Notes under the pieces: model-generated
What the model was told of the DNA's origin: nothing
The model's input: only the letters and a program-made list of their open reading frames with translations
The model's database searches: none
In this document: positions 10,103 to 43,084 of the stretch, in pieces
Layout of the letters: each line of letters starts with the position of its first letter
Position numbering within the stretch: position 1 is the stretch's first letter
Assembly: GCA_022925895.1 (NCBI GenBank)
Contig: JAKSYS010000538.1
Location: 1-43,251, forward strand
Source of the DNA: Fragilaria crotonensis
Taxonomy: Eukaryota > Bacillariophyta > Fragilariophyceae > Fragilariales > Fragilariaceae
Length of the DNA stretch: 43,251 bases
Direction of reading: 5' to 3'
Translations under genes and position numbers: made by a program

Positions 10103-10239
10103 TCCCTTAAGTAAATATGACTCAGGATGTTCAAAAAATTACTCAGGATGTACAAACCCATATCAGAAATTACTCAGAATGTATCAAGTAAAAACATATG
10201 TACCTGAAGAATTTTTATGTGTTTTTAGCCCCGCCCCCT
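10103..10239. repeat. Spacer with three short ACTCAGGATGT repeats
   Basis: Between the two helicase copies, ACTCAGGATGT or ACTCAGAATGT occurs three times (about 10121, 10141, 10171), each followed by an A/T-rich stretch. The truncated end of the downstream pseudogene abuts this spacer. No coding sequence is seen. Confidence 0.4.
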
Positions 10240-13846: not shown

Positions 13847-14330
13847 TAACACCAGGAGGTTCCGGGATATCCTCTTAACAGGAGATGGTATTGCGAATCC
13901 TGTAGAAGTTAAACTCACTCCGGAGTACTTGTAGTCCGGGAGTGTCCTTTCGCCAGTAGGACACGGTTTCAGTATCTGCTACCAGGTACTAGTACTAGTA
14001 AAGACACAAGGTTGCACCGTATGATCCATTATGCATTGCAATTTACATAAGAGTATGGATACAATTTTAGTAGCAAGCAGTTCTTTATACTAGCTTATAG
14101 TAGAATCGACATTCTTTCCTTTCAACATGATACTCAGGGTCAAAGTGACATTCAAGTTTTTGAATGTTCCGTTATTCGGCACACGTAGAAGCCATTCCTT
14201 GTACATTACACTTGTCGCACTTTGCAATTAGAAGTGGTCACTTTTTAACATGAAATCGTCATACGGAGAAATTTTCTTTTGATGAAACGTGAATATCAAT
14301 TCCGAGATGGAATCTTGATATTCAGTTTTT
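13847..14330. other. Spacer, no gene seen
   Basis: Contains TGTAACACCAGGAGGTTCCG and the mini-repeat ACTAGTACTAGTA, and becomes A/T-rich to the right. An LTR was considered but no second copy or polypurine tract was found. I see no coding sequence. Confidence 0.4.
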
Positions 14331-14450
14331 TTCAGTTTTCTTAAGCAGATTTCAGTTTTCTTAAGTAAACTTCAGTTTTCTTAAGTAGACTTCAGTTTTC
14401 TTAAGTAGACTTCAGTTTTCTTAAGCAGACTTCAGTTTTCTTAAGTAGAC
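14331..14450. repeat. 20-bp tandem repeat (6 units)
   Basis: Six exact-length 20-bp units TTCAGTTTTCTTAAGTAGAC (variants TTAAGCAGAT, TTAAGTAAAC, TTAAGCAGAC) run from 14331 to 14450, with a partial unit at 14321. The units contain the palindrome CTTAAG. There are no spacers, so this is a minisatellite and not a CRISPR array. Confidence 0.92.
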
Positions 14451-15259
14451 AGATGCGTTTGGAATTCTCCTGCAAACATAACGGCTTTGGGATACTCGGA
14501 GTAGAAGAGGATATGCATTTGAGCCGGAGGAGATGGAAAAAGATCGGAACTACTACTACTCTAGTACTACTAGCTAGCTAGAGATAGTATTACCCCAACA
14601 GTTCTTGTAGACCTAATTGGAAGTTTCGCGGACCAACCAAACACGTTGCAAGTCCCTTATAACTGCTCGATCTACAAAGGGGATCTGGAGCGAGAACCCG
14701 AGACTACTTGATTCCAAACGTATTGCATTGTAGCGGCCGGCAGTTCCAACCAACAAATGAATGAACCATCATTGACGAAGACTGGTTGAAGGGTGACATT
14801 CGCTCTTGTCGCATACATGACAAACGTGACAGGAGCTTCAGCAACGTGTGTAAACGAACAATCAAGAATTGCCTTCTCCAGACAAATCAGCAATCATGTG
14901 TCACCAGTTTGAACTTGCTCGAGTCCCATTTCATATTCGGTCTTCCATTGTTATGAATCGTACTTGACGACTCAAACTGCTATTTATTATGGGAAGAGGA
15001 AGGGGGGTCTATCTACGGTAAGCACCATCAAGCCATAAGGCTGCCATGCTCGCATGCCGGCATGCCTTGCTGAAGAACTTTGCAGAATACTGGCATAATC
15101 TTTGAATCAAGGACAACACCGTGAACCGTAGTCTCGCCACGAGGCCACGTGAGATGGCAATCGATCCCCGACTTCACCGCGGTTCGAACACACCCAGGAG
15201 GACGACGACATCCTCTGCCGTCGCGACTGACAAAACCTAACCGGGTGAATGCGATGAAA
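14451..15259. other. Spacer, no convincing gene
   Basis: A minus-strand open frame at 14672-14893 and another at 15028-15276 have no recognisable domains. Part of it may be decayed sequence belonging to the kinase remnant on its right. Confidence 0.3.
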
Positions 15260-21035: not shown

Positions 21036-22081
21036 CTAGATGTCGAACAAAGGGGCACCATTTTCCAATTGATACTGGACTATGACACATACGGCTTCAA
21101 AGCATTGTTTGTGACGCTCCATGCCATGGCGAAATCTTGTGTCAAGACAGGAATAACTTTTAATCCTTGCGTTGAATGTTTCATGTCGTGCACGTGCTCG
21201 TGTCTATTTTCAAAGCAATTATTTGTGAGCTGCAGCCAGTTAAGAAGCAGTTCAAACAAAGCAGCACATGACGTAGTTTCACACACCTTGAACTTTCGAA
21301 GTTCTGCATTATCATAGGAACTCGGTGTGCACAAAATGCCCCTTTCCCCTCGATAGCCCTTGTCAGCAATTCCCTTTGCACCAACAGGGGTCATCCCTTT
21401 CAGCTGTTCACGAAAGACTGTGACATCATGTTTTGATCCAACAAATGGGCCATTCATCCAAACCAAACCAAGGTCTCGCACTGACAGGGCAAGTTCATAA
21501 TCTAATCCAGCTTGGTTGAACTTATGTGAGTACAATTTGGTATTCTTTGCTAGTGTAGGATGGACAAGTTCGTTGATGCGACAATGCACTCCATCCACAG
21601 TGTAAAGGATTATCTCTGTGCACGATTCTGATGTCCATGCCTCTGGCTACACAATCTGTTAAAGACGAGGAGGCAAGTGAGTTCACTAGCATGATAATAC
21701 CCAGAGCAAGCACACTCATCTTATTACCTTTTTTGCTTTCAATGCTTGGACCTTTTCCACGTAGAACCATACCCACTTCCGAGCTCCCGTTTCACACGTG
21801 TGCCACATCCCAGCCAATTTCTCTTCCGATGGATACTCCTTCAGGAAGTAAAGAGCCATGAGAAACTTGTCAAATGTGGCATTTCTTGGGTGTTTAATAT
21901 CCTGTGATGATACCAAATCTTCCCACATAACAGAGCAGACAAGGTTTGACGAGCCATAGTATGACTGGAAGCGTCGCACATTTGTTGCTCCCTCTACACG
22001 CAGCTGACGACCGGTATCAAAACCAGCACAAAGCAGCCCAATTCTCAAGACTTTGTCTGCATTGAAGATGCGATTAACCAT
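21036..22081 (-). CDS. HARBI1/PIF-Harbinger-like transposase (DDE superfamily 4), three exons
   Basis: Exons 22081-21728, 21646-21287 and 21203-21036 join in frame to give about 293 aa. Intron 1 (21647-21727, 81 nt) is GTAATA...GTGTAG and intron 2 (21204-21286, 83 nt) is GTGTGT...AAATAG, both phase 0. The frame extends upstream to 22192, but the first ATG is at 22081. An N-terminal helix-turn-helix-like stretch (ATFDKFLMALYFLKEYPSEE) precedes the catalytic core. The core has TVDGVHCRINE (D at about 136), GSKHDVTVF (D at about 192), ADKGYRGE and, in exon 3, RARHETFNARIK (E at about 246). The C-terminus HKQCFEAVCVIVQYQLENG fits the family. No stop or frameshift is seen, so it may be recently active or domesticated. 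These enzymes cut and paste DNA at short TAA-like sites, usually with a Myb-like partner protein, which was not found here. Confidence 0.88.
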
Positions 22082-22470
22082 GTTGCTGAGATGTTTGGTG
22101 TGGCACAGTGTAATGTGGCGTTCTTGATGAAGAGAAAGTGATACTGTTGAAATCTGCGTTTGATGGCTGGTGTCGTTTAAACGTGGTTGCAACGAACTTC
22201 ACGGCAACAATGCACACACGATACACGATCCTCGTCCAAATAAAGGAGTGTGACTTGTGTCTTGTTGTGATTCGAGAGTAGTCATGCATGTCTACTGCAT
22301 CATACGTACACCATGTGCCAGTACGCGCAGTGAATTCCTAATGTGCCTCGATTGTACGTACTGTACAATCATTGTATTGTACACAAAATATACAGTAGTG
22401 GTCAGTGGTATTAGCCTCGTGGGGGAGTCCATGTCCATGTACGTTTCAGTTTCATGAAGTGTACGTTACC
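22082..22470. other. Upstream region of transposase gene
   Basis: No gene is evident. Several GTAC-rich palindromic stretches lie near 22310-22400. I found no clear terminal inverted repeat pairing with the 20.6-21.0 kb side. Confidence 0.35.
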
Positions 22471-22560
22471 GTTTGATTAAGTATGTTTAAGTTTGACTAA
22501 GTAAGTTTCAGTATGATTCAGCAAGTTTCAGTTTGATTCAGTAAGTTTCAATATTATTCA
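22471..22560. repeat. 20-bp tandem repeat (about 4.5 units)
   Basis: Units of the type GTTTGATTCAGTAAGTTTCA repeat with period 20 from 22471 to 22560, with a few substitutions per unit. It differs in sequence from the 20-bp array at 14331. Confidence 0.8.
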
Positions 22561-23006
22561 AGAGGCGATGGCTAAGATTCCATTGCCGAACTTCGGAGTA
22601 ATTAACAATTCTTCATAGAAAAATCCGTGAAGAAGAAAGCTTCCATGTCATCAAATGTTTTTCATAATAAGCACAACACGTGCTCACTTCAACGAAGGAG
22701 GTATTGCATTCCCAAGCCCTATCGTGGTACTAATTACAAATTATGTATGGTTACTTAAACTTTTATGCCTACTACAAATGTTGTACTGGAGTACTTATAA
22801 CAGTATGATAACATAGAATATCTACACGGTTTATAATTATTGTTGTCGCATAAGCTACATGACAAGTAGAGTACTCCGTACGAACTCAGACCTCAAAGAA
22901 GGAATCCTCAGGAATACTACCAGTACAAAGTACCTTCTACGACTGTGCAAAGGATCACTGATCTACCGGGATTTACGTAGAATGCTGCAGTAGGTCAATA
23001 TGTGCT
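22561..23006. other. Intergenic, no gene seen
   Basis: A/T-rich with several GTACT/AGTAC motifs. No open frame of note. Confidence 0.4.
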
Positions 23007-23914
<908 letters not shown>

Positions 23915-24587: not shown

Positions 24588-25490
24588 TTACCGCACGGGT
24601 TCAAAATAAGACCGTATCGATCTCACCCCTGCTATCGCTTTCTCCTTTGCTCGTTTTGCGCTTTCTTTGAAAATTGGTACATTCACCGTTAGCCAATTCC
24701 GAGTTACCCATAGTGGCTTATGCATATGTTCGTGTTCTTCACGAAGTAATAGTTCGCGGACTCTCGGTTCATATTGAGACGCTTGCCATATACTTCTCGC
24801 AGCTGCGCTGAAATCTCTCGCTTTTCCGCATGGCACGGTCTGCTGCGTCGCTCCCGTGTAACTCTTCGTTCCTTATCTTCCATAGCTTTTGCCATTCCTT
24901 CCATATCAAACAAATCAGTTTAGTTTGCCATCGGTGACCGCTGCGCCTGTCCTGTGTGCCTCGTTGGGACCGCAACCTTGCATAATGGTCGTCTTGAATC
25001 CGGCTCCATTCCGCACTGAACCTCCCGTTGATCGTTTGGCGCCAACCGATCGAATTTTGCTGGGTGATCAACGCTCGAACATCAGTGGAAAAGAAAATTG
25101 GCGATGCTTGAAACTCGACTTCCTCATTTGTGACCATCCAGTCTCTTATTGTTTCGTTCCATAAATTGCGAAGTAATGGATTTGTTTCTTCTTTAGCGTG
25201 GAACTCATCAATGATGTGATGAAAACTGTCCCTCCATTCTGACGACTTGCGGCCGTACACTTAAGGATATGGTCCCTGGTTTCCCGGCATGTTCCACAAC
25301 CTGGGCACATTCGTGTTCTGCTTTCTTGCTTGTTTAAGCGTTCAAGAGTGGGTAAGCACTCGTGTACCAGTTTTGTGATGTGTATCCGTTTCTTTATCAT
25401 CTGTTTCATCGCCTTTCCATGCGCCCGCCAGTTAATCGTAGCCATAGTTGCTTCGGTGTACCCATACTTGGCTTGAATGTATTCTCGCAA
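24588..25490 (-). pseudogene. LINE-A ORF2, zinc finger and C-terminal region
   Basis: The block 25490-25146 has CPGCGTCRETRDHILKC, a C-x2-C-x8-H-x3-C knuckle of the kind at the end of many LINE polyproteins. The blocks 25260-24769 and 24836-24588 continue in other frames with a Trp-rich helical region (LIWKEWQKLWKIRNEELHG). The protein ends GVRSIRSYFEPVR. The last residues align with the Q-x-x-I-x-x-F-F ends of LINE-B and LINE-C, with V in place of Q and Y-F in place of F-F. Confidence 0.8.
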
Positions 25491-25581: not shown

Positions 25582-26418
25582 TCATGAGTGCATATGGATG
25601 TGCGCGTCCATATTGATCTTGATACCTCCCGCTAAATCATCAGCGTCGACGTTTAACTGCGCCCGTAGAGTAAGTCTATTGTACGCCTTCTTCTTGTCCT
25701 GGTGGCCTTTAACATAGACCAGTTTGACTCCTGGCATATGTGTAAGAGCATATCGGATTTCAACGAGTAAATCCCATTCAGGTATCAAAGGATCAAGGGG
25801 GGTGAGATTCCTGGGAAGTGCAGTCGGGGCAGATGCCGCAGGGCCCCCGTCCCGATCTCGTCCGAATATTGTGTCAAGCATGCTTTGACTATCTGTCCCG
25901 ATTGTACCGTCCCATGGTTCAATCATGTTTGTATATTCAGACAGCCTCAACAAAAATCGCAGAATTGACAGCATGCCACTGCATTCTGCTCGGTAGGAGT
26001 CCATTACGTATCCCCTTGATGGTCCCATTCCCGTCGCTACTCGTTCGCCTTGGGATGTGCTAATCATCCATCCGAATGATCCGTCGGTGCCATACTTCTC
26101 GGAACCATCGCTCCCGGCTTCAAATCCTTGGTGTAACTCTAAACATGCTGTATACGGATCCACAAATAAGTCTGTATGCCGCAGGAGATCGACCTCCCAT
26201 GCATCAAGCTGTTGAACGTAGTCGTCAAACGTAGCCACTGGTAACGGTCGCGGTTGGATACTCCGAGACAGCTTGTTGATTATTTCCCATCGATGCATTC
26301 TTCCTGCCTGCTGAATTTCCACGGGTACTGCCATATTCGGAATCTCCCCCCTCTTCGATATTGAGATTGCTTTCTCTATACATTCGTTGAGTGTCTTCAA
26401 GCTTCCGACATTTGACAT
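25582..26418 (-). pseudogene. LINE-A ORF2, RNase H domain
   Basis: The four catalytic acidic positions can be seen: D in SDGSEKYG (near 26109), E in SYRAECSGML, D in GTDSQSML and D in NVDADDLA near the end, with the conserved H in VKGHQDKKKAYNR. The domain degrades the RNA strand after first-strand synthesis. It overlaps the end of the RT frame by 22 nt in another frame, another frameshift. Confidence 0.88.
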
Positions 26419-28966
26419 ATTCCCCTCCCATTCGTCGCACGTATAATGTCGATCTGTAGACGTAAGCAGGGTAAGATATCCGACTTTCTGTGGTAGTTAG
26501 TAACCAAGGCCCCAAGGGTTGGACCAATGTGCCGTCGGGATAGCTCCATAGCGCATTTGCTTTTTTTCCATAATTTCCATGATACTGCAGATGGTAACTC
26601 TTGATGCACCTTCATCCACCTCGGACGATTGCTGAACAGTGATTCTTGACCCGTGAGTTTTGCTTGATCTAACTGCGTTCCCTCTGTCGTCGCCAAATCC
26701 GATATTGTCAGCGCTCCCAGGTATAATCGACAATAATTGATTCGCCTGATTTCATTATCGCTGAATCGACCTGATGCTAATATCCGATCCATAATGAATT
26801 CATCGTGACGTCGCTCTAGTGGTGCAACACCCGTGTAGTCCAACTGTATTCCTGCTTTGATAAAGGCCAAATATCCACGCAGGGAACTTAACCATTTGGA
26901 TTCCAGATGCGGGAGATTATCGTACACATTTTCCATCAACGGTAGTGAGGTCCCAACACAGTATTGTGCCCAAGCTACGGCACATCGGAGTAGCCTTCCT
27001 GCTGTTGTCTTGTTGCGCCAATGCCTCAAGAATAATTGAACTTGTCCGATACCTTGTTGGTCATACAATCTCCTGAAATTAGCGCCGCCGTATTCCAATG
27101 GACCGTATATGATAGCTCGTTTTGTGTTCCGATTATATCCACATTTCGCAATGATGATTGACATCGCTTTCCGTTGAATATTGTTTAATTGAGCTGCCGT
27201 GAAGTGTGAATTTGCGAGGGGATAACCGATACTTGGTAAGTAGCACGCGTAATAGAACGTCCATGCTTCTTCTGGGGTCAATGAACATTGATACAAAAAT
27301 TCGACCGAATTATCGCTCTTGGATTTCAGTTGTCGATATTGTTCGCGCTGTGTGCCCGCCGGATCTTTGTAGTGACCCAAGGTTTTGTGTGATGCATATG
27401 GAGACAAGTACGTGAGTTCTTGATCGATTCCTGATGCGGGATCTTTTACGCGGACTCCTTTGAACTGAGACGAATCCGTCATTAGGATAGGGGCTCCTGT
27501 TACCGTGAATTGCCAAGCCATAACGTGATACGAGCACTTCGATGGTTCTAATGCTCCTCCAGAAATCCCAAGCAGTTCCGCCCAGAGTTGTGCGTTATTT
27601 TCCAACTGGGTGATAATCTGATGGCGTGCATTTTCCGTTTCCTCATGATCGAACAGGTTGGTTTGCCCGTTTGAGTCATCGACGAAGCCGACCATACCGA
27701 GTTCCACTGTTTCTGATGTACTTGGATTTTTGTAAGTTGCCTTTGCTGCTTTCTGGTCATAGCAATCGTAAAGTAGACTCGACAAGAAACACCATATAGC
27801 AGGAGAATTACCACTTCCTTGTCCTGTTCCGTATATTGGGTGAGTATTGCTATGCGTGTAGCTCTCTCTGCTAATCCCATTTCGGTTCTGATGTGATATC
27901 TTGCGTGCTTTAGCGTCCGCGCGTTTGACGCTGTCACTGAAGGGGCACTCAAATGTCTGACTTGCAACCATTGCCAAGTTTGGAACAATCCGGTCGTAGC
28001 ACGAGGCTGCATCGTAATTCGTCTGCACCAATGTTTTTCTTGTTAAGCGGAAATCTCAAACTGAAGTTCTTCGATGAATACTGGGTCTATTGCATTCCGA
28101 TGAGGTCGCGATCCATATTGGCCATCGTTTAGAAGTGATAGACTCTCTGCGTGATACAATGCTGATCGCCATTTTAATCCCATCGCTAGATTGTAATCTG
28201 CTTCATACAGATGGATAACTCTGGTACGATGGATCCGAATGTTCCCTGGTTCTTTGAACAGTATACTATTTGCCACTTTCTGCCACCGGCGATAGGAGTA
28301 TCCTCGAGTCAGGGCGTAGTTTATCAAGTGCAAATGAAGTTGGAACAAATCGGACTGCATTTTGTCAAGTTCTTCCCGATTGGCTTTGTGTTCTTCATCT
28401 TCATCTTCTGGAATGTTGGAATATTGATGCTTTGCTATCAATGCTTTGTAATGCCCGAGATGTAATCCTGATGGTGAGGTCGCAGTGGATTCTCGCCATA
28501 CTTGTAGTTTACTCTTCATCTCGCCCTCGGTTATGGAGGCCATGTGTTCCATTGTCGCTATTTCTGCTGATTGTTTCAAATGATCTAACAACAGTCGAAG
28601 ATTGCTTTGCATTTCCGGATCGTGTTGGTAAGTTCCTGTTAGTAGTTGTTTCGCTGCCGAACGCTGGCCTGTGAATCCAAGGTCTGTACTCAACGGTGGA
28701 ACAGTGAACGGAGTCCCTTGCGCTTGTCCGAAATGCTTCTGATTCCGTGTCCGAAGATGATGCAAAACTTGAGTTGGGATATCAATCTGTTGCCACGAGG
28801 TGCACTCTTTTGGATCCATCGTCAAATCTGTCGGTATTTCGATACGTGTAACGCCTTGTCGCTCATGAGTCAGTCGTAATCGTCGCAACTTTGAGAAGAG
28901 TTGGTTGAGGGCTTCCGCTTTTTTGTAGATGTCGCAACCTTGTAGCTTGATCCTGATCACTTGCAA
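26397..28966 (-). pseudogene. LINE-A ORF2, reverse transcriptase domain
   Basis: Two frames, 28966-28043 and 28031-26397. The first holds the finger region with SPSGLHLGHYKAL and RPHRNAIDPVFIEELQ. The second holds motif A YDAASCYDRI (near 28016), motif B GTGQGSGNSPAIW, motif C FVDD (near 27686) and the following GGALEPSKCSYHVM. The break between them is a frameshift just before motif A. The thumb-side signature NRNTKRAIIYGPLEYGG is shared with LINE-B. The frame then runs on in a long connection region to 26397. Confidence 0.92.
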
Positions 28967-29184: not shown

Positions 29185-30329
29185 TTATTCACCACTTGAA
29201 CTTTTTTTCCTAGCTTGTGCTAAGTCGACTGACCAGAATGGTTTGTCGAAGTGAGGAATGGTTTGTTCAGCTGCAAGGCTCGCCGCTTCTACATCTTTAT
29301 CGAGTCTTTCTGCAAATCGATGTCTATTCCCTGGCAATTCTAAGCGTTTCATCCTGTCGAAGACGTTATGTGCATCCAGATACTTGTGTTTTGCTTTGAT
29401 GTATGCCGTCACCTGTTTCAGATTGTTTGCCTTCAACACTCGTGGCTCGTATTTTGATAATGGTTGAATCTGAATTCCGAACAACTTGTCTGTCGAAAGA
29501 TCCACAAAATACGTTCGATGGTCCGTTTGGTATCTTGCGTTGAATGCTTCATACCCTGCTTTTTCCACTGCATTAATTACATGCGGGGTGGCGAGGGCGT
29601 AATCCAAACATCTCTGGCCGCGGGCGTAAGTTGCTGGAAGTCTGCCTCCGTGCCGGTGCTTCATTACATCAATTAAGCCAATGTCGTCTACTATTTTTTG
29701 CATGGAGTCTTGTTCGTCTCCGATTTGCTCATTGAAGTCGCCGACCAAGAGAATTTCATGACGTTCGCTGCGACATTGCTGAAGAAACCGTTTCAAATCT
29801 CGCCGAAAAGCCTCTCTGGGGCGATCACCGGATCTTGTTCTTGGATGAGAAAACTTTGTTGTTGAGATGCCGCTGTCATCAAACCTTTGCCTGGACTATC
29901 TGTAACGACTTGATAAGCTGAGATTACTGTAAATATAACACCTGCTCTTCCCTGAAATGTTTGACTTGTCCATCGACCCCATTTGTCTTGTGATGTAGAC
30001 TTGATTCTGCCTGTAGCGTTTCCCATTGTCATCATGAATGTGCCGCCTGGTTTATATAAATTCTTGAAGACGACGGGGGTGTTTGCGAAGTTAATCCGTG
30101 ACCGTTGCCAGTACTTACGTGTAGTATCGAATACTATACTTCGAACTGGTGATTGCATGGAGTCGAGGTTGTGTTCTTGTCCGCACGCTATGTCCGCCTG
30201 TACTTCTTGTAAAGTTGTGCAATATGTATCGAATTGTCCTCCTCTGCGATCCAGTGTAAATCCGTTGACGTTTGCCGAATAAACTCTGAGTATTCCGTCT
30301 CCTTTATTTTCCATTTCATCGCCCCACAT
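29185..30329 (-). pseudogene. LINE-A ORF2, AP-endonuclease domain
   Basis: Begins MWGDEMENKGDGILRVYSAN, with the N-terminal N of the endonuclease fold in VYSANVNG and the acidic residue in CGQEHN. The frame breaks near 29810, where one base is missing before REAFRRDL, and resumes at 29796. The second block has GDFNEQIGDE (catalytic D/N, near 29742), YARGQRCLDYALA and DHRTYFVD (catalytic D-H). The enzyme nicks target DNA to prime reverse transcription. A basic linker follows to 28863 in another frame. Confidence 0.88.
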
Positions 30330-30960: not shown

Positions 30961-32792
30961 ATGGGTCCATCGCCAGCTACGAAAGACAACGGTCCACCGG
31001 AGGAGACAGCTTCGGAAGACGAGGGTCCACCGGAGGAGATGATGATTCCTCCTCGTCGCAAGTCCCCTCGCACCCGTAAAAAAGAAGCGAAGGCGACAAG
31101 AGTGGCGGCGATTGAGGAGGAGTTCCAGAAGAGTGCAAGGAGGCAACTGAACCAGAATCCAAAGAACAAGACGAATGAAAAAGGTACAAACAAGACGAAT
31201 GAAAAAGGTACGAACAAGGCGAACGAAAAGGTACAAACAAGACGAATGAAAAGTAAGAAGAATGTTGTAAGTACTACTACCAACCAGAATGATGAGGGAA
31301 CCACTGCTGCGGCTCCAATTGATGAGCGAACCGCTGCTGCTGATTCACTTAATACCGACGAGAAGAAGAAAGAACAAGAACCCGCAGGTAAGCACAAATA
31401 CTACCAACAAATCGAGTAAGGGCAGCAAAAGTGGCAAAACTTGTGAAGAAGACGGTAGCACGTAGGGTGGTGACAAGGCGTAACCCGGCACCACCTGAAG
31501 AAGAGGAAGAGCAACATCGGATGACGATAAATCATCGGTGGCAGAAATTGTTTTGGTACGTACAGTGGGTACGAAACATAATCCAAAACCACGTGTAAAG
31601 GAAGAGGAAGAAGAAGAGCAAAACTCCGCTGCTAATCATTCACCAGATCCACCACGCTATGTCAATAGGGACGATGTTGATGATGACGAGGAATATGAAA
31701 CTAGCTACCATACTGCTGACCATTCATCATCAGATGATGACGATGACATTCTTGTGGACAATTAAAATGAAGAAGCAGTGGTGGATTGTGATCAGGAGGA
31801 TTTGTCAACTTCAAGCGACGAGAAGTCACGAAGGCCAAGGGCGTAGGGACAACGAGTGTACTACGGGTCATACAGCCAGTAAAATCCCAACGGTTGCGAT
31901 TGTTGCCAAAGCACCAACAAGTGCTGCCGCATCAACTCTGGGACTTGATGGTGAAACGCTCCACATACACGGGATGTTGCGATCGCAGTCAATTAAAAAT
32001 CGGCAAAACATGTCACTGACCGTGTACGAATATTTGTCAAATCCGATATCTTCAGGAAGATCAAGTTTATAAACAGTGATGCGAGTTTTCAACAGGCAAT
32101 CAGGTTGGTGATGGATCATGAGAATGTGCCGGAACAGCAGCGTGGTCATTTCCAGATGCTATACGAGAGCGTGTTTAATGAAGCCTTGAACACCAAACAA
32201 AGTTCTTGTGAGCAATCGGGTGGAAAGATTGTTCGAGACACCATTGCCAAGTTTAAATTGACTGGAGAGGAATTGTTCACAATGGACGAGCTCTGTAAGC
32301 TGAGAAGAGCCACAACGGAACGCGAGTTGCAAGCTTTCTATTGGTTTTGGAACATACTTGGAATGCGTGTGCGGAAGGAGGTCTTGGGAAAGCACAAGAC
32401 AAGGCAGTTGATTTCGAAGCAAGAGAGCCCGGTGGTCGTGGCAGAATTGTCACAAAAGTGACGAGGCATTTGCGTTACTAATGTTTGAAAATTATATTGA
32501 TGAGTGGAAATCCTTGCCTCCTGTTGCTGATGAGGCCGAAGATTCTGATTCAGAGCAAGGACAACGAAAGAAGAAAGCGAAACCTAGACAGCGAGGAGCA
32601 TACACACGAACAAAAAGTGGGCACTGCAAATACGGTGGGTGGAGTCATGAGGGAATTGCACGATTCAATGAACTTTACAGCCTTGTGCAGGAAGACAGGC
32701 AATGCACCCAAGCAGAGGCAATGGAGAAGCAATTACTGGCGTTTTGCATGAGTCAGGCAGGTCTAGTGCATGGACGAAAATGTAAAACGTGA
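30961..32792 (+). pseudogene. Degenerate hypothetical gene, low-complexity N-terminus and helical C-terminal domain
   Basis: Starts with MGPSPATKDNGPPEETASED and a Lys/Asn-rich section in which NKTNEKGT is repeated. It continues in shifting frames through KLVKKTVARRVVTRRNPAPP, acidic patches (31538-31765), NRQNMSLTVYEYLSNPI (about 32040), AIRLVMDHENVPEQQRGHFQ (from about 32090) and MFENYIDEWKSLPP (32481). It ends CKYGGWSHEGIARFNELYSL...GRKCKT at 32792. A donor-like CAG|GTAAGC at 31388 suggests a real intron, but frame changes near 31770, 32045 and 32460 need one-base slips. The family is unknown to me by function; I recall similar diatom proteins. The 3' end abuts the 3' end of LINE-C. Confidence 0.6.
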
Positions 32793-32881
32793 ACTAATTA
32801 TTTGGGTTGTCACCATATAATGGCCGGCAGGTCGCACTTGTGTACCCATTTCCAGCGGTCGCCCGCGAGAAAATATTGTTA

Positions 32882-32895
32882 ACCTAAACCCTAAC
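32882..32895. repeat. Short interstitial telomere-like sequence
   Basis: CCTAAACCCTAACC lies immediately downstream of the C-terminal PIP-like box of LINE-C, where the coding strand reads GGTTAGGGTTTAGG. Two units only, so chance is possible. Confidence 0.4.
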
Positions 32896-33902
32896 CACTC
32901 CGGAAAAAAATTTGTGATCAGTGTCTGTGCCGTACCGTCTTTCGTTAATTCAGCTGATGATTGCTTCGCCTTGCGTAGCCACCGACGCCTTGTAGCGGGA
33001 GTACCGGCCAAGATCTTAGACAGGGGTCTACGACAGTAATGTTGGTCACCTGTGCGAAGAAGATGCGGCCGACTATGATAATACGTAATCTCCGCTGCTT
33101 CAGTAGATCGAATGTTAACCAGAGTCACGTCATGCTGGGAATGCAGTACCTCATTCCGCGATAACCAGAGCCGTCGAGTATGTGCACTCAAAGCAGTAAT
33201 TATCTGCTTCATGCGCATCGCTCCTCGTCGTGCATCCCGAGTCTTGCGATGCATATCGTATTGTGCCAGTATTCCCAGTGCTTCGCAAAGTACTTTCATA
33301 GAGCTTTCCCAGCCTATTTGTGTTTGGGCCTCCAGCGCCGCGGGTAATAGATCGTGGAAATGGGATGAGAACTGCGATATCGGCGGAGAATATGGAGTAT
33401 CCGCTTGTTGAAGTGACAAAAACCATCCGCCAAAAGATAACGTACCGGGTGAACATCAGCAGTCAATATATCAGACCGTAACTGGTCAATGCTCGACAAA
33501 AAGGATGGATTATCTCGGCATCGGAGGAAATGTTGAGCGTTTCATCCGCTGTTTTACAGCAGGACAAAGTTTCAATGACATATCTTTCACTGGGGCCTCT
33601 CGAAATCGTCGTTCGCCAAGGTAATTGGTCATGCACGAATTTGAAATGCTGTCCTCGATGATTTGGTCAGGTCGTTTGAAATGTTGCCCAAAGGTGTGAA
33701 AATCAATCATATCCCAGGTACCGTTATTCCACCGATGGCGTTGTTGAACATATTGACGGAGGTGATATCCATTAACGTGGAAACGAATGCATTCATCGTA
33801 TTGACTGGTGACAGGAGTGCCATTTATATAGAGCGAGATCTGTTGATCCGGCCGATGATCGACAGATGCAATGGCCCGAAGCCTGCCATGTTGACGGTAT
33901 CT

Positions 33903-34041: not shown

Positions 34042-35530
34042 TTATAGTCTCTTGAAGAATTCCGTAATCGCAGTTTGGGTTTTACCGTCGTGTTCGTACC
34101 GTGCTCGAGCGTTTCGCATGTACAGTAACCACCTCCTCCTTACTGAATGACTTGCACGAAGTAAATCTCCCAGTGGACGTTCACAGAAATGTCGGTCGCC
34201 CGCGCTTACGAGTTCAGGATGGTTGTGAAGATGAGTGATCTCAAATAATTCTGGACAACGCAATCCTCGCATACCCTGCGAGTCATGGCCATGTAGTTTT
34301 TGGTTCCGTGCTTTCCACATCGACATACTGAATTCGTGGGTTGCTCGAATGATTTTCCGCATAGTCTGGAGACCCTTTGCCTGGATTATTTCCTCCGTAT
34401 CACCTGCTGGTAGGGATGCTAGGTATCGCCACTCGACTGTGAAGAACCCTCGCATGGCTGCAGACCATCCAATCCGTGACTGTTGTGCCACCGCCTTCAC
34501 GATCGAAGATTGATGGAGACTCGGATACTCCGTCATATCCAAATGCTGGTCCTTGTTTTCCAGCCAGTTTAACAACATATGCTTGAGCGCCTTGACGGGT
34601 GGGAGCAGACTCGCAGTGTCTATCGCTCGTCTAAACAGACCAAGGGCTGTCTCTCGTCCTGGATTTTCAATACATTGGAGAACGTGGTCGTCATCTTCCT
34701 CCACCCGAAAACAGCATGGACACAATCTCATGGTTGGGTCTTTTATCTTCGCCACTTGGTACCTCCGTAGTCCAGTGTGTCTCTGGTTGTTCATGAACTT
34801 GACTTGTGCAGTGTGCTTAGATGGGGTCAGCGACCGGCAGAACTGGCTCAGTAGTTGAATATCAATCGTATTCCACTCGTCGTCGGTCCACTTGTGACGA
34901 GCTTGTAAATGTTGACGCAAATGATAGCCGTTGATGTGGAAGCGGATACACTCCTCCACCTGTCCTACTTGCTGAATGCCTTGAATCCAAATGGAGACTC
35001 TCGACTCTGGAATATGGACCGTGATTTCTCTGGACTGTCGTCTTGTGGTACCATTGCGATATTCGGTAGCTAGTTCGTCCGCGCGGTTGTTTCGGATGAC
35101 ATCCTTGCTTGGATTTTTTGTACTTTGATGACCTTTTACCCATGTTGGTAGAAGCTGAGAGCGTAGAGAAGTTCGATACGATCTTATCTGGGCAAGGAGA
35201 TCTGAGTTTGTGGGTTGTTTCCACCTGGGCTTATGGGCTGAAGTATGCTTCTCGACGTTCGAAATTGCTGCTTTACTGTCACACACCCACCGTAGCTTCC
35301 CCCTGAATCTTTGTGCCCCACTGGTGAACGAGCAACGACAGTAACAGGAGTGGAGCAGCCAATCCAGCAATCTCGCATCGAGTCGAATTAGCAACATCTC
35401 TGGGCCCGTCGACTGGTCCCGATCCTTCGTACAGGATGATATTCTCTGAAGTGCTCAGTGTCCACCCGAATGTACCCCTAGCATCTTTCAAACCGCCGTC
35501 GCTAGCAATCGTGAGATTCTTTTTCGAGCG
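34042..35530 (-). pseudogene. LINE-B ORF2 RNase H, zinc finger and C-terminus
   Basis: RNase H starts with IASDGGLKDARGTFGW (near 35500), with STRCEIAGLAAPLLLL supplying the E. After a frame change the rest is in 35397-34042: CDSKAAISNVEKH, TWVKGHQSTKN and NNRADELATEYRNG. The zinc knuckle is CPCCFRVEEDDDHVLQC (C-x2-C-x9-H-x3-C). A helical Trp-containing region follows. The protein ends GKTQTAITEFFKRL with a stop at 34042, and QTAITEFF is a canonical-looking PIP box. This 451-codon frame is the longest undamaged part of the element. Confidence 0.92.
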
Positions 35531-36005: not shown

Positions 36006-37943
36006 TCAACTTGTAGTACATCCGTAACATGGATCGCCATGTTGTGATTCGACAGAAATTGGCGGAGAGAAAGGATCCACGTTGGCGTCAGGTAATCCAA
36101 AACGATTGTTGGATGCTCCAGAAGATGGGACAAAATACCCGCTTCCAACTGAAGCGTCTTCAAGTATGACCAAAAGTTCTCCCACTTCCGTACGACGGTA
36201 GATATGATGGCGAAAGTACTTCACCATCTCAATTCCACACTCGGTGCGAAGATCCATCAGTCCCAATCCTCCCATGGAAAGCGGCCCGTGGCGGACTGCT
36301 GTTGGTAGATTCCTATTCATCCCTAGCTTTTGTACAATTGCCGGCAATATCCTTGTTTGTATCTGTTCCAACTCCTCCTCATCGATCGCTAACGCTGGAA
36401 GCGAGTATCGCATTGCTGGCTCATAGGTTGTTCGTACGAAAACTCTTATGTCGCTCGACGTCAACCGTGGTGTCTGTATCCGGGATGCGTACTCGTCGGC
36501 CTTTTTCTTCAGTATGGAAACGTGGTGGGAAAAATCGCCGATCGGGTTTGGTAAACTCAAGTATTCGTGTTGCTTGATTGAGTGATTGTCGGCGAATTAC
36601 AACTCGGTGCGGATCTTGTCCTTGGCTCAATCTGACTGTTGCGAGGGGATCTATCGTTTGCTCTCGAAGAATGGGACGTCCTGACCTCCAATCCCAATAC
36701 ATGACAAACCACGAGCATTTTGAAAGATTTAGAGAACCTCCGGAGTAGTGCAATAGTTTCTCCCATGTTTGTGCTAGATCTTCAAGGCTTGTTACGAGAT
36801 CTTCAAAGGACATACTTCCGTTGTCCGTGAATCCGAGGGCAGTGTCGTCCACAAATGCATCCACCAATCTCGAATGCGTATTGACGCCGTCCGATGATCG
36901 GAAGCTCATTCGGAGGGGACTGACTCGCTCCAGCGTATTCAGAAGAATGACTACCAACGTGAGCCAAACAGCAGGATGCTCCGCTGCCTTGCCCCGTACC
37001 AAAAGAGGAGCAAATGGAGTACCTGTATAGGAATTCTCCGACACTCCATACACAGTTTTAACCATATAGCGCATAAGTTCCAACGATTGGGCGTGAGACC
37101 TTACAGCATTGATCGGCATGCCGCATCGTCGGGCGGCCAACATTCCCAGGGCTACTATGATACGATCGAAACACGCAGACGCGTCATTATCGAATCGAGC
37201 GTAGTTGGTCTTCAAAAGTCTACTCATGTCGGCCGTTAGTTGGGTCAACATGATAGGTTCCATTGTCGTTTTCCTGGAGTTGAACCGTGTTGGCCCGAGT
37301 TGAGTAGATTCATCTGCACTGCTCTCCGTACCAGTCGCGATCCCAAGTGAGTTTCAGGAACAAGTTATAGTCTGCCTCGAACAGATGAATGATACGTAGA
37401 CGATTGATTTTGGGATCTCCCTTATCTTTTCGATCATGACGTTCACTGCTTTTGCCATCTGGGAATAGATATCCCGCGTGTCACAACAATGTTCAAGAAT
37501 TTGGCCATACTGTCGAGCAGGATCGGATCCTGTACCAACGCTTTATAGTGACCGAGGTGTCGTCCAGATGGGGACGTAGTGGTAGATTCCTTCCAACTTA
37601 GGATTCCTTTCTTGAAATCCTCACTGGAGATGGTAATGGGGATTGGATCAGCGTCTTGTACCGAGTTGGGAATGGTGAACGACGCGAGAAACTCTTTCAA
37701 TAGCATGTCGTCTCCATGCCATGAAGATGGTACTATCCCCCGTAGGAGATCCTCGGCTGCAGGAGACAAACTGGTGAATGTTAACGCGTCATGGATCGTG
37801 CCATTGCCGCAAGGTGAAGAAGCTGCAGCTCTGAATGCGTCTCTATTGAACTTGACAAGGTGGGCTTCGATTTCCTCGCGAGAGATGATGGTGTCCCACA
37901 TTATGTCCGCGGGAGGTCTCCTCCAATACCGTGTGCACATCGC
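36006..37943 (-). pseudogene. LINE-B ORF2 reverse transcriptase, frameshifted
   Basis: The finger region in 37940-37443 has SPSGRHLGHYKAL. The block 37263-36421 has motif A FDNDASACFDRI (near 37194) and motif C FVDD (near 36855), then GGSLNLSKCSWFVMYWDW. Motif B, GTGQGSGAS, lies in another frame at about 36974-37000, so two compensating slips flank it. The block 36560-36006 has the thumb-side signature NRNLPTAVRHGPLSMGG seen also in LINE-A. Confidence 0.9.
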
Positions 37944-39818
37944 CGGGCTGAGTTACCTTGCTGGCTTCTTTCTCGCGAGGAATTTTCAACTTTGTGAGTG
38001 GAGAGTATTCCCGGTTTAATCAAGTTTTTGATATGTGAAAACATATTTCGATTTGATTCACTGAGAGTGTTCGTCGTACGATTTTGGCCTTTCGCATGGA
38101 TTCATGTTTCGTGTGGTGATTAGTGTCAGCGTCGTATGTGTCTAACAGATCTTGAAAACTCTGTTGGCGGTGAGACAATGAATGTTTCTGAACGATGCGC
38201 AGTTGTTTAGATGCCTCGTTGAGACGCTTTCTGACCGTGTTCACATCCAATGCCTGACCAAACTCGGGAAGTCGAAAGGACGAGTCAAATTCTTGAATCT
38301 TCGTTTCCCATCTTTGAAAGGTTTCTTGGTAATCTGCCCCATGTAGGAGTTCGCGCAGTCGGAGTTTCCAGTATCGCATTATCACCCCCGTATTGCGTAG
38401 TTTCGGCGACCATTTATATGTTTTCGGTTGGATGTGGAGAACCTTTTCGGCATGCATCATCGCGCGGCCTTGGTCGTTGTCCCACGCACATAAGAGTTTG
38501 CGGAGTTGTGGCGTTGTCATTTCCTGATGACGTGCATGTAACTCTTGGATCCGAGATTCCATATTGTGAGTCTCGTAGTATTTCCGGACTCCCGATAGAT
38601 ACGTAGCAACCATTTCTGGATTTCCACTGTACAACGATCTCATATTCGGTGTATCCATTGGACTATCAACCGTATCCCTAGGATTTCTTCCAGTCTTAGA
38701 TCGACATAGAGACCTCGGTGATCTGATTGTGGGCCCTCTATATAAGCAAGACTGCCTTGGCGCATTACAGAGGATACAACTTTTGGACACCCAGTATATA
38801 ATCGATCCGTCGATTCGCTGAACCAATAAATGTGGATGGGGCAGGGTGAGTGCTGTGTAAGTCAGACAAATCGCAGGATCCAATAAATTCCTGCAAGTGC
38901 TTATCCTGATAGATGGTTCCGTTTGCGTCCATCATTACCAAAATCGAGTGCCCTGCATTCTGGAGCTTCATGATTGTCTGTCGGAGATCTGATAGTATCC
39001 TCTGTCGGGGCTGGGAGAAACTTCACCTTGTCTCCGGTAGTACTCATGTTCCCTTACCAATGCACTCCCTAGTGGCGCCTGCCTTACTGATCCTCGCATA
39101 CTCTGTAGACAGTGAGTAACGAAAGAGTGGATCCGCCTTTACCTTCGATGGTGATTCCACTCCATCTGCCCAGTCCTGTAGGGTCGCAGATTCCTGGACC
39201 TTGAACTGTCGTTGTGTGTTTTCCTCGGATAGTGGTGAGACATCCCCTGCCTGAAAAGATTCGCTACGAACATCGATCCACCTCCGTTATTGGGTACCCA
39301 AAGACTGTTTTCCCCAATCTAAACTGTCTCTAACACTCGCTGTGTATTCCATTTGGAGATGGTATTGTTGCCACGCGGTGTTTGTCTCAGCCAATCCAAA
39401 ACAGTCGACCTGAATGCCGCCATCTGGGACATGTAGTATTTGTAGTCCTCCAATCCGGAGGAATACGTCAATCCTTTACATTCTGAAAGAATATCCTTAA
39501 CGAACGTGGGTCTTTATACACAACCGCATCACCGAATGATTGTGTAGCCTGTGGGTCTGTTTGCTTTCTTGCTTTGATTCGTCCAGGGCGATGTCTCGGG
39601 AGCATTAAAACTGATGACAGATGTGGCAGTGGTGGATGCCTGTCTTGTCCTTGTGACATATAGCGGCCTCTTGTTCTGTTGGACATTCCGCCATTGCATG
39701 ATTGACCAAATGGAATCGTGGTAGTATCTAGGCTGTTCATTTCCTCGTTCGCGGTAGTCTCTCCTCGTGTCCGCATCACCTCCTCTGTACGCTGCTGATT
39801 ATGATGCTGTGTCGCCAT
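37944..39818 (-). pseudogene. LINE-B ORF2 start, endonuclease and linker, heavily decayed
   Basis: ORF2 begins at the ATG 39818 (MATQHHNQQRTEEVMR), which overlaps the ORF1 stop by 20 nt. SLRIFFQNVKD near 39485 is the first strand of the endonuclease. Other remnants are HSILVMMDANGTI (near 38940) and SANRRIDYILG (near 38800), matching the DxN and RxxDY motifs. The linker (38650-38030) is helical and basic. At least three frames are used. Confidence 0.82.
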
Positions 39819-42800
39819 TAATCAGGTTTGCCACCGTCTGGATCGAGGGTCTTGTGTATTGATCGTCCAGATCGGTTGGGGCTTCGCGGGATGCAAGGTT
39901 CCCAATATGATGTTGTCCGCTAGCCTGGTGTAGGGTATTAGCGTGTTGTAGTTCCTCGAAAGCATCTTCAAGGTTTAAGCAGACGTCCGACGACTCAGAC
40001 ATATCCTCAAGAAGGTCTTCACCACCGATTCCATGAATTGCGAATCCTTCACCCTTCTCTTCTTGGTATGCAAGGCCCTCTATTGGTTTAATCTTGTCCT
40101 TATCTATCTTATCCGCAATTATGCAGTTGTTGTGTTCGTCATCGCCGATTCGGTGTTTGGATCTTGTATGCTGTTTCTTTTTCTCAGGAGATCTGTAAAC
40201 GCTCGTGTCTTGGGATGAGTCCTGAGATGTCTTCGATTTCGTCGATCCAGAATGCACGCTCGACCCGCCACTATGTTGGCTTCTTTTGTTTGCCCTAGGA
40301 TTTTCCAAATTTCCAGGGTTTGAATACTTCGTGCCGTCGATGTGTTGTCGTGTCATTGCTATTTCCATTTTGTCCGCCATGGCTGTCATAAACTGAGATA
40401 ATTGTTCGAATTGTTTCCTCATGTCCAACATCGTGTATGACATGTCTTGTTGGCTTTCCATTGTGAGAAGTATCTTGTCGTTCATGTCTGAAAATTGGTG
40501 GGATGTTTCCTTGGAAAGTACCTCCAAATTATCTGATAAGATCTTTTGCTCTTTGCCGATTGTTCCAGCTTCACATTTGAATGTTCTAGTTGCGTCTGGA
40601 CTGCCGACATTTTGGTATCCAACTCCTCTATTCTTGTGAATTGCCGTTCAAGATTGTTCAAGCGGTCCGATGATATCTTCCCTGATGTTTTCGACTCCTG
40701 TTGTTGTCGTTTGATTAACTGTTCGAGTTCATGGAATCTAGAGTCCGTGCTATTCATTCGAGAGACAACTGTCATTGATCGTGTTGAGGTTGTGCTTCTT
40801 TCCTCTTCCATACTTGTGGCAGAACTTGCCTCCGACCCGAGGTACGGATTGTTTTGCTCATGGTTGTTGCGTTGGTTAGTTGTTCCAGTGGACTGATCGC
40901 TACGGTTGTTGGACGCCTCAGATGGAGTTGGCCATGCTTGTTTTGTGCGTTGGAGATGTGAGTTCAGACTGGTGTTCTGTGAGACTGTTTGGGGCTTGTT
41001 GTGATTGGAATTGTTGCTTGGCGACGTTGAATCTGACCTTGGTTGTCCTTCTGGTTCTCGGTGCCATGTTGTCGCCATCGACATTTGTTCCAGGAATTGC
41101 ACATTTGCTTGGATCTCCGTCTGAATGACTATTACGTCGGGAAGACCTGGTAAATTGTCTCTGAACCTTGCTTCTCGATGACTCGGAGCCTTGATTTGTA
41201 TTGCTGCCATTGATATTGTGCGCGTTTAAAATAATGACTCAGGTCACCAAATATGCCTTGTTGTCATTTGTCCCGTTAACTGCATCGCATAAAGCTGAAG
41301 TGGTTCCGTCCTTTTCTTTAAGAGATGCTATCCATTCTCGTGTAGATCGTTTTGTTGTTGATCCGTCTTCATGGTATTCAGTGCGAACTTGATCAAGATG
41401 AGTGACTTGTGGAGAAAGTGTGATCGCTTGCAATGACTTTGCCCACCTGTCATGGAACTGAAAATGTTTCCGAACCTGTTCGTTGCTCATTGTGCCTAGT
41501 GCGTATCTTGGTAAGAACAGAGCGATACCTCGTCCCGTCATGATCGGAAGAAGTGCTTGGCACAACGGTGTGACATGTTTCTCCCCGCATTGGATCGTGA
41601 GATGTGGAATTAGCTGATCCATAGGGCACTTTTTCTGTCGAATGACGTCAAAAATGGAGCATGATCCGGCAGTAAACTCCTTAAATACTTGTTGTACCAG
41701 AGTTTATGAGTGGTGTTCGGAGCTTTGAGCAGGATATATCCCGCTGTAACCATTTTACCACTTGAGCTCGCAGAGTTTGAAATTGTGACATCAAGTTGTT
41801 TTGTTGTAAACTTTTCCTTCATCATTTCAGAATTCTTCCACATGGACGGATTGTTCTTAAAGCCAAAGCGGACTCCAAATATCATCTGAGATCGCTCTGG
41901 TATCATTGTAACTTTCGGAGATATATAGTCTCGTAACCCGATAGCTGTTAGATTTTGCACCGAATTTGACATCATCAAATCTTCGCTTTCCCACCGGTAC
42001 AGCATTCCGTATTGTTCGGGAGAATATCACTCACTAAGTTGTAGATTGCTTCATTCATTTTATTTTTTGTCGCTTTCGTATACTGCCAAATCCTCCGGTG
42101 GGAACCATTTGATCGTGACTCGATGGGTACCATCGTTTGTCGGAATGTTTGGATGTGGTGCTGTTTGGGTGGTTGTATTGTTCCATGGCGTCGTACTCTC
42201 CTTTTCATTTAGATCATGTCGGTTGTTACCAAATACGTGTTGGGTTTCCTGTTCAACTTCGTTATCCGTCACATTTCGACCAAGTGGAAGTTGCTGAGAA
42301 TCCTGCTTCTTATTCTCTCTCATCGTTTTGTTGAGCTGGTCAGCTTTTTCCCCTTTCCTTTCGATCACGTCTTTGTTCTTTTGGATCAATGGGAGTTGTC
42401 CTCGTTGTTCCGGCAGTTTGTTTTCCATGGGTCGATAGTTCCTTGGTAATTCTTCTGGGGGAAGATTAAAACCAGGAGCAAAGGCACCGACAACATTGCT
42501 CGTATTCACGTTAATAATGGACTGCTGATTTGGTGGGCTCTTTGATCGACGGCGTCCTGAAACTGGGATCCAAGCTTGGGCATCGTCAATCTCCATTTCC
42601 TCTTGCTGTTTGAAAAATCGCATCTCTTTCCAAGAGTAAGCAGTGGTATCGGTTTCGTGCAATGTCGTTGGGTCATGGACCGCTAGATACGGTTGAGAGA
42701 TGTTGGTTGCCCAATCGTTTAACTTGACTGGAACCTGGAGATCACGATCAACGTGACTCATGAAGTTATACCAGATTGCTCTATGGACCATGAGAGGATC

Positions 42801-43084
42801 CGTGTTAACAGCTGCCCAAACTTTGTCGCATTCGAAACAATCTTCGAACACAAACAATCCAAGATGAATGTATCGATTCCAGTTGGTTGGGTGTCCGTAC
42901 TGCCGATAGGCCTGCGCGTTGGCGTTCCTACGATAACGTTCTTGGCGGGAAAACCAGTCGGGGCTTCGGGAATGGGTTGATCTACCCAGGTGTCAGTCTC
43001 GAATCCATACATCGTGTGCGATGGAGTCAAATCGACGGGGAGAGCCGAAGGAGGCGTGGGAGCCGTTCCTTCGGTCATGGTCAT
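39799..43084 (-). pseudogene. LINE-B ORF1 (coiled-coil protein), frameshifted
   Basis: The protein starts MTMTEGTAPTPPSALPVDLT at 43084. It continues through FECDKVWAAVNTDPLMVHRA (frame from 42857), VTIKWFPPEDLAVYESD, GLRDYISPKVTMIPE (42005-41610), KHVTPLCQALLPIM and STREWIASLKEKDG (41622-41239). Next comes a Ser/Asn-rich segment with long coiled-coil patterns (FHELEQLIKRQQQE, NNLERQFTRIEELD, DMRKQFEQLSQFMTAMADKM). It ends ANLINGDTAS. Frame changes occur near 42865, 42050, 41615, 41220 and 40535. ORF1 proteins of LINEs coat the RNA as chaperones; the coiled coil would support multimerisation. I see no CCHC knuckle or clear RRM. Confidence 0.85.

Follow-up and report, generated by a model that had tools for sequence, protein, structure and literature searches.

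A candidate PCNA-interacting peptide conserved at or near the C-terminus of ORF2 proteins in a diverged diatom LINE lineage

Introduction

Could the short tail of a retrotransposon protein serve to hold it to the sliding clamp of its host? The question is raised by a 43,251-nucleotide stretch of the diatom Fragilaria crotonensis (contig JAKSYS010000538.1 of assembly GCA_022925895.1; the whole stretch is called the window here), in which an initial annotation had described three copies of long interspersed nuclear elements (LINEs), LINE-A, LINE-B and LINE-C, whose second open reading frames (ORF2) carry strings resembling the PCNA-interacting protein (PIP) box, Q-x-x-[ILM]-x-x-[FY]-[FY] (the strict pattern below). 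Comparison with relatives in the same genome leads us to consider it likely that in the lineage of LINE-B and LINE-C (the B/C lineage) the C-terminal tail of the ORF2 protein (ORF2p) is a PCNA-interacting peptide.

That a LINE can engage PCNA is already known from human L1, through other parts of ORF2p. As reported in excerpts of the papers cited here and below, this interaction is required for retrotransposition (PMC5371812, PMC10830420, PMC7617806), with its step disputed as well as its site, an internal PIP box or a PUB site on the wrist (PMC10830420, PMC7617806). The initial annotation had taken the human PIP box between the endonuclease and reverse transcriptase domains as established; this placement was indeed proposed, but it has since been questioned, with PCNA placed on the wrist domain (PMC7617806). 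The new part here is the C-terminal version. Among the listed matches of the open-access literature, as far as their titles and the starts of their abstracts tell, there was no description of a C-terminal PIP box in a LINE, and the excerpts of PMC5371812, PMC7617806, PMC5821459, PMC10830420, PMC6068448, PMC5821460 and PMC10830416 deal with human L1, DNA transposons or bacterial elements.

Results

PIP-like strings in the window

The three strings were all present where they had been placed, on the minus strand:

34045-34077, minus strand: C-terminus of LINE-B ORF2, QTAITEFFKRL, with the PIP box QTAITEFF at 34054-34077 and the stop codon at 34042-34044
32904-32927, minus strand: PIP box QTLITNFF of LINE-C, with an open frame that extends 46 residues beyond FF
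24603-24626, minus strand: PIP-like motif VRSIRSYF of LINE-A, lacking Q, followed by EPVR and a stop codon at 24588-24590

LINE-B ORF2 thus ends as described, and the motifs of LINE-B and LINE-C match the strict pattern, while that of LINE-A does not. The extreme C-terminal position inferred for the clade in the initial annotation did not hold for the LINE-C motif of the window, as its frame runs on. The LINE-A string, described as a variant, is present and non-strict, but it belongs to a separate lineage with its own conserved Q-less form rather than being a decayed LINE-B motif. All three copies look broken or incomplete, and dead: LINE-B ORF2 is spread over several frames, and the LINE-A end, VRSIRSYFEPVR, sits in a different frame from the adjoining upstream ORF. 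Relatives were therefore needed for testing the motif, and these were sought in a single genome, the window's own 62.1 Mb assembly of 881 contigs.

Conservation of the motif in the B/C lineage

A query with the LINE-B tail yielded at least 94 matches at 34%-100% identity, many within open frames of 500-2000 residues (90 of 735 candidates scored), and queries with the LINE-C and LINE-A tails yielded at least 150 matches each (150 of 384 and 150 of 418 candidates scored, respectively). Counted by eye, 140 of the 150 LINE-C matches listed cover query residue 184, which is the second F of the motif. The retrieved loci number 119 for the B/C lineage and 32 for the LINE-A lineage. Loci L001-L030 were returned by the search and not hand-picked, L031-L050 came next down the LINE-B match list, L051-L110 were mostly selected for matches reaching the motif region, and L111-L119 were selected because the match stopped short. 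As this selection favours tail-bearing copies, key counts were redone on L001-L050 alone. The 110 in-frame B/C copies comprised 100 unique ones, reduced to 97 after three whose frame stops before the motif position were dropped; the printed motif string of L093 conceals a one-residue insertion.

Among these 97 copies, PIP position 1 is Q in 93, position 4 is I, L, M or V in 94, and positions 7 and 8 are F or Y in 93 and 89. The information content at these four positions is 3.6, 2.4, 3.6 and 3.6 bits, compared to 0.9-1.5 bits at neighbouring positions -1, 2, 3 and 6 and 0.6-0.9 bits after the motif. T at position 5 (85/97) and G at -3 are conserved as well. The strict pattern is present in 81 of the 97 unique tails, diverged copies included, against a mean of 0.16 and a maximum of 2 in shuffles, bearing out the initial claim that the motif is conserved in separate copies. 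By group, it was found in 21 of 24 tails from L001-L030, 37 of 40 from L001-L050 and 43 of 53 from L051-L110.

Several other views of the data give the same pattern. With duplicates counted, an anchor is present in 113 of 122 C-terminal rows and the strict motif in 94. An alignment of 31 C-terminal regions (A1, consisting of 30 of 32 references plus P0001, with L037 and L039 omitted because their frames break before the motif) has Q460 invariant and T464 and F466 at 90% or above. When all of the 97 copies but L025, L085, L114, L118 and L119 were clustered at 60% identity (92 copies), 24 of 27 clusters contained a strict PIP box, and the other three (L073, L074, L104) carry a second strict PIP box downstream. 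Long ORF2 frames of 821-1362 residues contain a single strict motif near the C-terminus in 13 of 15 cases and none in the other two, with a shuffled expectation of 0.035 per protein; no strict PIP box besides the C-terminal one was found in these 15 frames, which cover little or nothing upstream of the reverse transcriptase.

Both the linker from a conserved RRW to the motif and the tail after the motif are variable in sequence, and the spacing from RRW to Q is conserved (20 residues in 82 of 91 copies). Near-identical copies exist, several being 98-100% identical to the window copy, and the motif is also kept in many copies at 34-55% amino-acid identity. Judged by sequence, these data support the assignment of the B/C tail as a canonical PIP box that is located at the C-terminus or close to it and persists in strongly diverged copies.

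Constraint at the codon level

Approximate ratios of non-synonymous to synonymous change (dN/dS) were obtained for 91 of the 97 copies, excluding L025, L085, L104, L114, L118 and L119, which either could not be aligned or have a frame shift in the motif or close to it. The ratio is 0.00 at Q (10 synonymous and no non-synonymous changes), 0.10 at FF and 0.14 for all four PIP positions together. The x positions have 0.56, the linker 0.50, the residues directly following the motif 0.74 and the preceding domain 0.28. Restricting the count to L001-L050 (39 copies, not chosen for reaching the motif) gave 0.00 at Q, 0.05 at FF and 0.11 for the four positions, and for the x positions, the linker, the residues directly following the motif and the preceding domain it gave 0.59, 0.52, 0.77 and 0.28, respectively. 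The expectation set out in the initial annotation, that Q, I and FF are constrained above their neighbours, is thus borne out among copies of the same genome (0.14 versus 0.50-0.74 in x positions and flanks). Codon choice at these residues is free: in 71 unique motif-bearing sequences Q is CAA in 46 and CAG in 25, and the F counts are TTT 38 and TTC 18, and TTC 39 and TTT 29, which indicates selection on the peptide and not on the DNA.

A second motif in long-tailed copies

Seven copies whose frame continues beyond the retrieved end were extended (L068 and L085, with frames that also run on, were left out), and a second strict PIP box was found near the true end in six of them (L073/L141, L074/L145, L101/L142, L102/L143, L103/L147 and L104/L144). 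In five of the six the second site reads QQRMT[AES]F[FY]PG, 19-21 residues before the stop, and in L073 it is QMSILRYF, 3 residues before the stop. The ancestral site has for the most part decayed in these six copies and is strict in L101 only, that of L073 departing from the strict pattern by V at position 4. The distance between the two sites is 38-43 residues in five copies and about 65 in L104, and the second site lies in unrelated sequence rich in P, T and R. The seventh extended copy, L100, keeps the ancestral QSLITQFF with a 32-residue tail, and no second PIP site was found in that tail. In a tree built from a short stretch, five second-site copies form one clade (support 0.95) with the sixth apart, and the second site may therefore have originated on two occasions. 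The relocated motif amounts to a natural experiment, suggesting that selection keeps the peptide rather than its place in the fold.

As a separate observation, the extension past the PIP box of LINE-C (window 32763-32903) is shared with L068, a copy on contig C261 with a 2003-residue frame, and most other relatives are without it.

Resemblance to known PCNA-binding peptides

A 14-position profile (A4) of 73 motif peptides, with L025, L072, L085, L104, L114, L118, L119 and duplicates omitted, was searched against 177,635 PDB sequences at E-values up to 10. It returned four matches, all of them PIP peptides, three from p21 and one from DNMT1; the reversed profile, run as a control, returned two unrelated proteins, neither a PIP peptide. 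An earlier profile, A3 (68 of 78 sequences; weaker, long-tailed and near-duplicate copies omitted), had mostly matched TAL effectors without an individually passing stretch, its passing matches being p21 (two sequences) and DNMT1, and the narrower A4 eliminated the TAL matches. A PCNA chain is present in the same PDB entries 1axc, 6k3a and 5e0u, and presumably also in 4rjf.

The LINE-A lineage

The pattern G[VMT][RKQ][STNA][IL]xx[YF][FWL] lies at the end of 29 of the 32 LINE-A-lineage loci, a descriptive count, as the pattern was composed after inspecting 19 of the 32; the other three loci are frame-broken. A stop codon follows 3-13 residues after the motif in 28 of the 29, and none was seen in the retrieved DNA of L134. 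Since the lineage conserves its own Q-less form, a decayed LINE-B motif was ruled out. Profile A5 was built from 26 of 29 sequences, near-identical ones omitted. The LINE-A profile had four PDB matches: two nanobodies, an HN protein in which no stretch passes and a peptide of RNase H2B, SGMKSIDTFFG (3p87, which we take to be a PCNA complex). RNASEH2B is described as carrying a functional PIP box (PMC6068448), and of the confirmed PCNA motifs covered by the review PMC6881253, 34% are without Q. We regard the LINE-A end as a probable Q-less PIP box, with less confidence than we have in the B/C motif.

Host PCNA and PIP boxes

The PCNA gene of the host has at least two exons, matching human PCNA residues 1-114 and 124-258, and its product carries QLGIP within the connector loop and YYLAPKI at its end. 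On this alignment and these strings, the host clamp looks canonical and intact. A host FEN1-like protein, the top XPG_I match, carries QARMDSFFKAV near its C-terminus, and the host therefore appears to use ordinary PIP boxes.

Architecture of the elements

The remaining parts of the three window copies are as follows:

34042-35454, minus strand: LINE-B ORF2 C-terminal open frame of 470 residues, with the end of an RNase H-like region, a CPCC...H...C zinc-type motif (by eye), the C-terminal region and the PIP box
36421-37353, minus strand: LINE-B reverse transcriptase region, with by-eye motifs FDNDASACFDRI and DAFVDD and no Pfam match in the window copy
32763-33455, minus strand: LINE-C ORF2 C-terminal open frame of 230 residues, the source of the LINE-C matches above
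24769-25260, minus strand: LINE-A ORF2 C-terminal region, with a frame break ahead of the motif
26397-28055, minus strand: LINE-A reverse transcriptase region, with by-eye motifs YDAASCYDRI, GTGQGSGNSPAIW and VGFVDD (RVT_1, E 0.1 in the window copy)
29185-29895, minus strand: LINE-A AP-type endonuclease region (Exo_endo_phos, E 4.5e-4, under the cut-off here; relatives exceed the cut-off)

Pfam, NCBIfam and PDB searches of the ORF2 frames yielded little, and the reverse transcriptase of these LINEs is very diverged. In the LINE-A lineage, an AP-type endonuclease over the cut-off, RVT_1 and the C-terminal match are colinear on contigs C98, C114, C273, C5, C507, C7 and C129, with RVT_1 over its cut-off in C5, C114 and C273 and at E 0.001 or below yet under the cut-off in C98, C507, C7 and C129. 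In C129 all three lie within one 2025-residue frame that reaches the motif (L157), and in C7 a 1978-residue frame holds all three, with a stop ahead of the motif (L137). In the B/C lineage, C108 and C878 have an endonuclease over the cut-off ahead of the C-terminal match, in separate frames, and RVT_1 matches C794 (E 1e-4) and C550 (E 1.9e-4), both under the cut-off. RNase_H (PF00075) matches P0001 (E 0.018) and L050 (E 8.1e-4), both weakly and under the curated cut-off.

Other features were observed in the window and the assembly:

39799-42992, minus strand: frames lying upstream of LINE-B ORF2, among them one that matches a coiled coil weakly and below the cut-off; a possible ORF1
5890-9864 and 10225-12034, minus strand: DEAD/DEAH helicase frame of 1324 residues and an adjoining broken second copy (by eye)
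21080-21646, minus strand: fragment of a DDE_Tnp_4 transposase, slightly below the Pfam cut-off
14311-14470: tandem repeat with a 20-bp unit, found again in diverged form 8 kb away at 22467-22566
23046-23510: long array with 9-base spacing, encoding poly-Asp, poly-Met, poly-Ile or poly-Ser depending on the frame
Contig C155, about 62389-64770, minus strand: a single 4666-residue open frame with an over-cut-off endonuclease and strong RVT_1, another very long LINE-like ORF

Discussion

We consider it very likely that the B/C motif binds PCNA, given its match to the canonical pattern and its selective constraint. Solved PIP-PCNA complexes suggest, by analogy, that the host clamp would take up Q, I/L/M, F and F in its Q-pocket and hydrophobic pocket. 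The short tail would tether a protein with endonuclease, reverse transcriptase and RNase H-like regions, together with its RNA, to PCNA-loaded DNA that is replicating or under repair. Nicking and target-primed reverse transcription would then proceed on clamp-loaded DNA, and the LINE-A lineage probably acts alike through its Q-less, RNase H2B-like version. Physical binding and the stage of retrotransposition at which PCNA would be needed are inferred here, and the coupling of target-primed reverse transcription to replication forks suggested in the initial annotation is a hypothesis.

Several points weigh against this reading of the tail. The conservation is known from one genome, and the sampling is biased toward tail-bearing copies. 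Among the nine loci L111-L119, four have an in-frame unique tail and only one of these four is strict, the others being mostly frame-broken. The absence of motif or constraint that the initial annotation named as refuting was mostly not found: of the 16 tails among the 97 without the strict motif, several are frame-shifted and five carry another strict motif further downstream. The dN/dS values were obtained with a home-made parsimony count over a FastTree tree. The A4 matches in the PDB are weak (E 0.03-0.25), and as short peptides gain from the length correction, this result is strong as an identification and not as an E-value; full-length PIP proteins were absent from the A4 matches within the same search space. 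The top matches of the LINE-A profile were the two nanobodies, by chance, and its RNase H2B match has an E-value of 1.1. Searches of IMG/VR, GTDB contigs and phage records gave no confirmed relatives, these being prokaryotic and viral collections that are uninformative on other eukaryotes.

The tail might instead fold onto the C-terminal domain or RNase H of ORF2p itself as a strand or plug, with Q, I, F and F kept for this internal contact and their likeness to a PIP box only superficial. The near-fixed spacing from RRW to Q is what would be expected of a structured element, and the conserved G (-3) and T (position 5) point the same way; however, the stretch separating RRW from the motif varies in sequence, all four PDB sequences matched by the motif profile are peptides of PCNA clients, and an intramolecular contact should not follow the motif to its new position in unrelated sequence, as seen in six copies. 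We consider such folding unlikely. Less probable still is a PIP degron acting through CRL4-Cdt2 in part of the family, by which ORF2p would be destroyed on chromatin-loaded PCNA. PIP degrons are marked by TD at positions 5-6, and the frequent T at position 5 is followed by D in L011, L013, L014, L019 and L030; these are only 5 of 97 copies, and a signal for self-destruction is hard to square with strong purifying selection. Finally, the several copies 98-100% identical to the window copy would suit conservation that reflects recent common ancestry, or a nucleotide-level 3' signal recognised by the reverse transcriptase, but the motif is retained at 34-55% amino-acid identity, the Q and F codons vary and Q has changed only synonymously, leaving this explanation with negligible weight. 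Chance or recent descent is ruled out by divergence, codon variation and shuffle counts.

A more serious alternative accepts the contact with PCNA and shifts its timing, with the clamp serving second-strand synthesis, gap repair or ligation once the first strand has been made, and not target choice. Roles in processivity or repair are raised as possible in the excerpts of PMC5371812, whereas the RNase H-like region of these proteins, a weak Pfam match, makes the RNase H2 recruitment that has been proposed for L1 (PMC6068448) less needed. We think such a late role quite possible but lean away from it, and as to the main role of the tail, recruitment to PCNA-loaded, replicating DNA and a later part in processivity or repair seem to us evenly balanced.

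Returning to the tail as a clamp-binding peptide, we offer a broader proposal tentatively, judging it slightly less probable than its converse: two LINE lineages of one genome would end their ORF2p in clamp-binding peptides, one p21-like and the other RNase H2B-like, and an extended ORF2p would gain a new PIP box near its new end, making the tether near-obligate yet replaceable and these LINEs retrotransposons directed to the lagging strand or the fork. If the tail is the clamp contact, the requirement for PCNA could be tested by deleting the tail or changing Q and FF, leaving the catalytic domains untouched. A short, detachable C-terminal clamp peptide under strong selection would bear on the disputed site and step of PCNA engagement in L1.

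Compared with known systems, human L1 ORF2p is likewise a LINE protein with endonuclease and reverse transcriptase that engages the host sliding clamp. Its proposed sites are the NTE PIP box at residues 407-415, between the endonuclease and reverse transcriptase, or the wrist PUB site, while in the very diverged lineage described here the candidate site is a canonical peptide, C-terminal or nearly so. The PIP boxes of pogo, Tigger and Lemi1 transposases and the beta-clamp motifs of bacterial transposases are likewise sliding-clamp motifs on mobile-element proteins (excerpts of PMC5371812), but these elements are DNA transposons without a reverse transcriptase, unlike the LINEs of this genome. 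For the LINE-A lineage, the PIP box of RNase H2B (3p87) is also Q-less and preceded by Gly and aligns with G[VM][RK]SIxxYF, an analogy that is a lead from a single weak match. Among the PDB sequences, the closest likeness to the LINE-B and LINE-C motif is found in the PIP boxes of p21 (QTSMTDFY) and DNMT1 (QTTITSHF), T at position 5 included; these are host proteins of the cell cycle and of methylation, whose homology to the LINE proteins ends at the motif.
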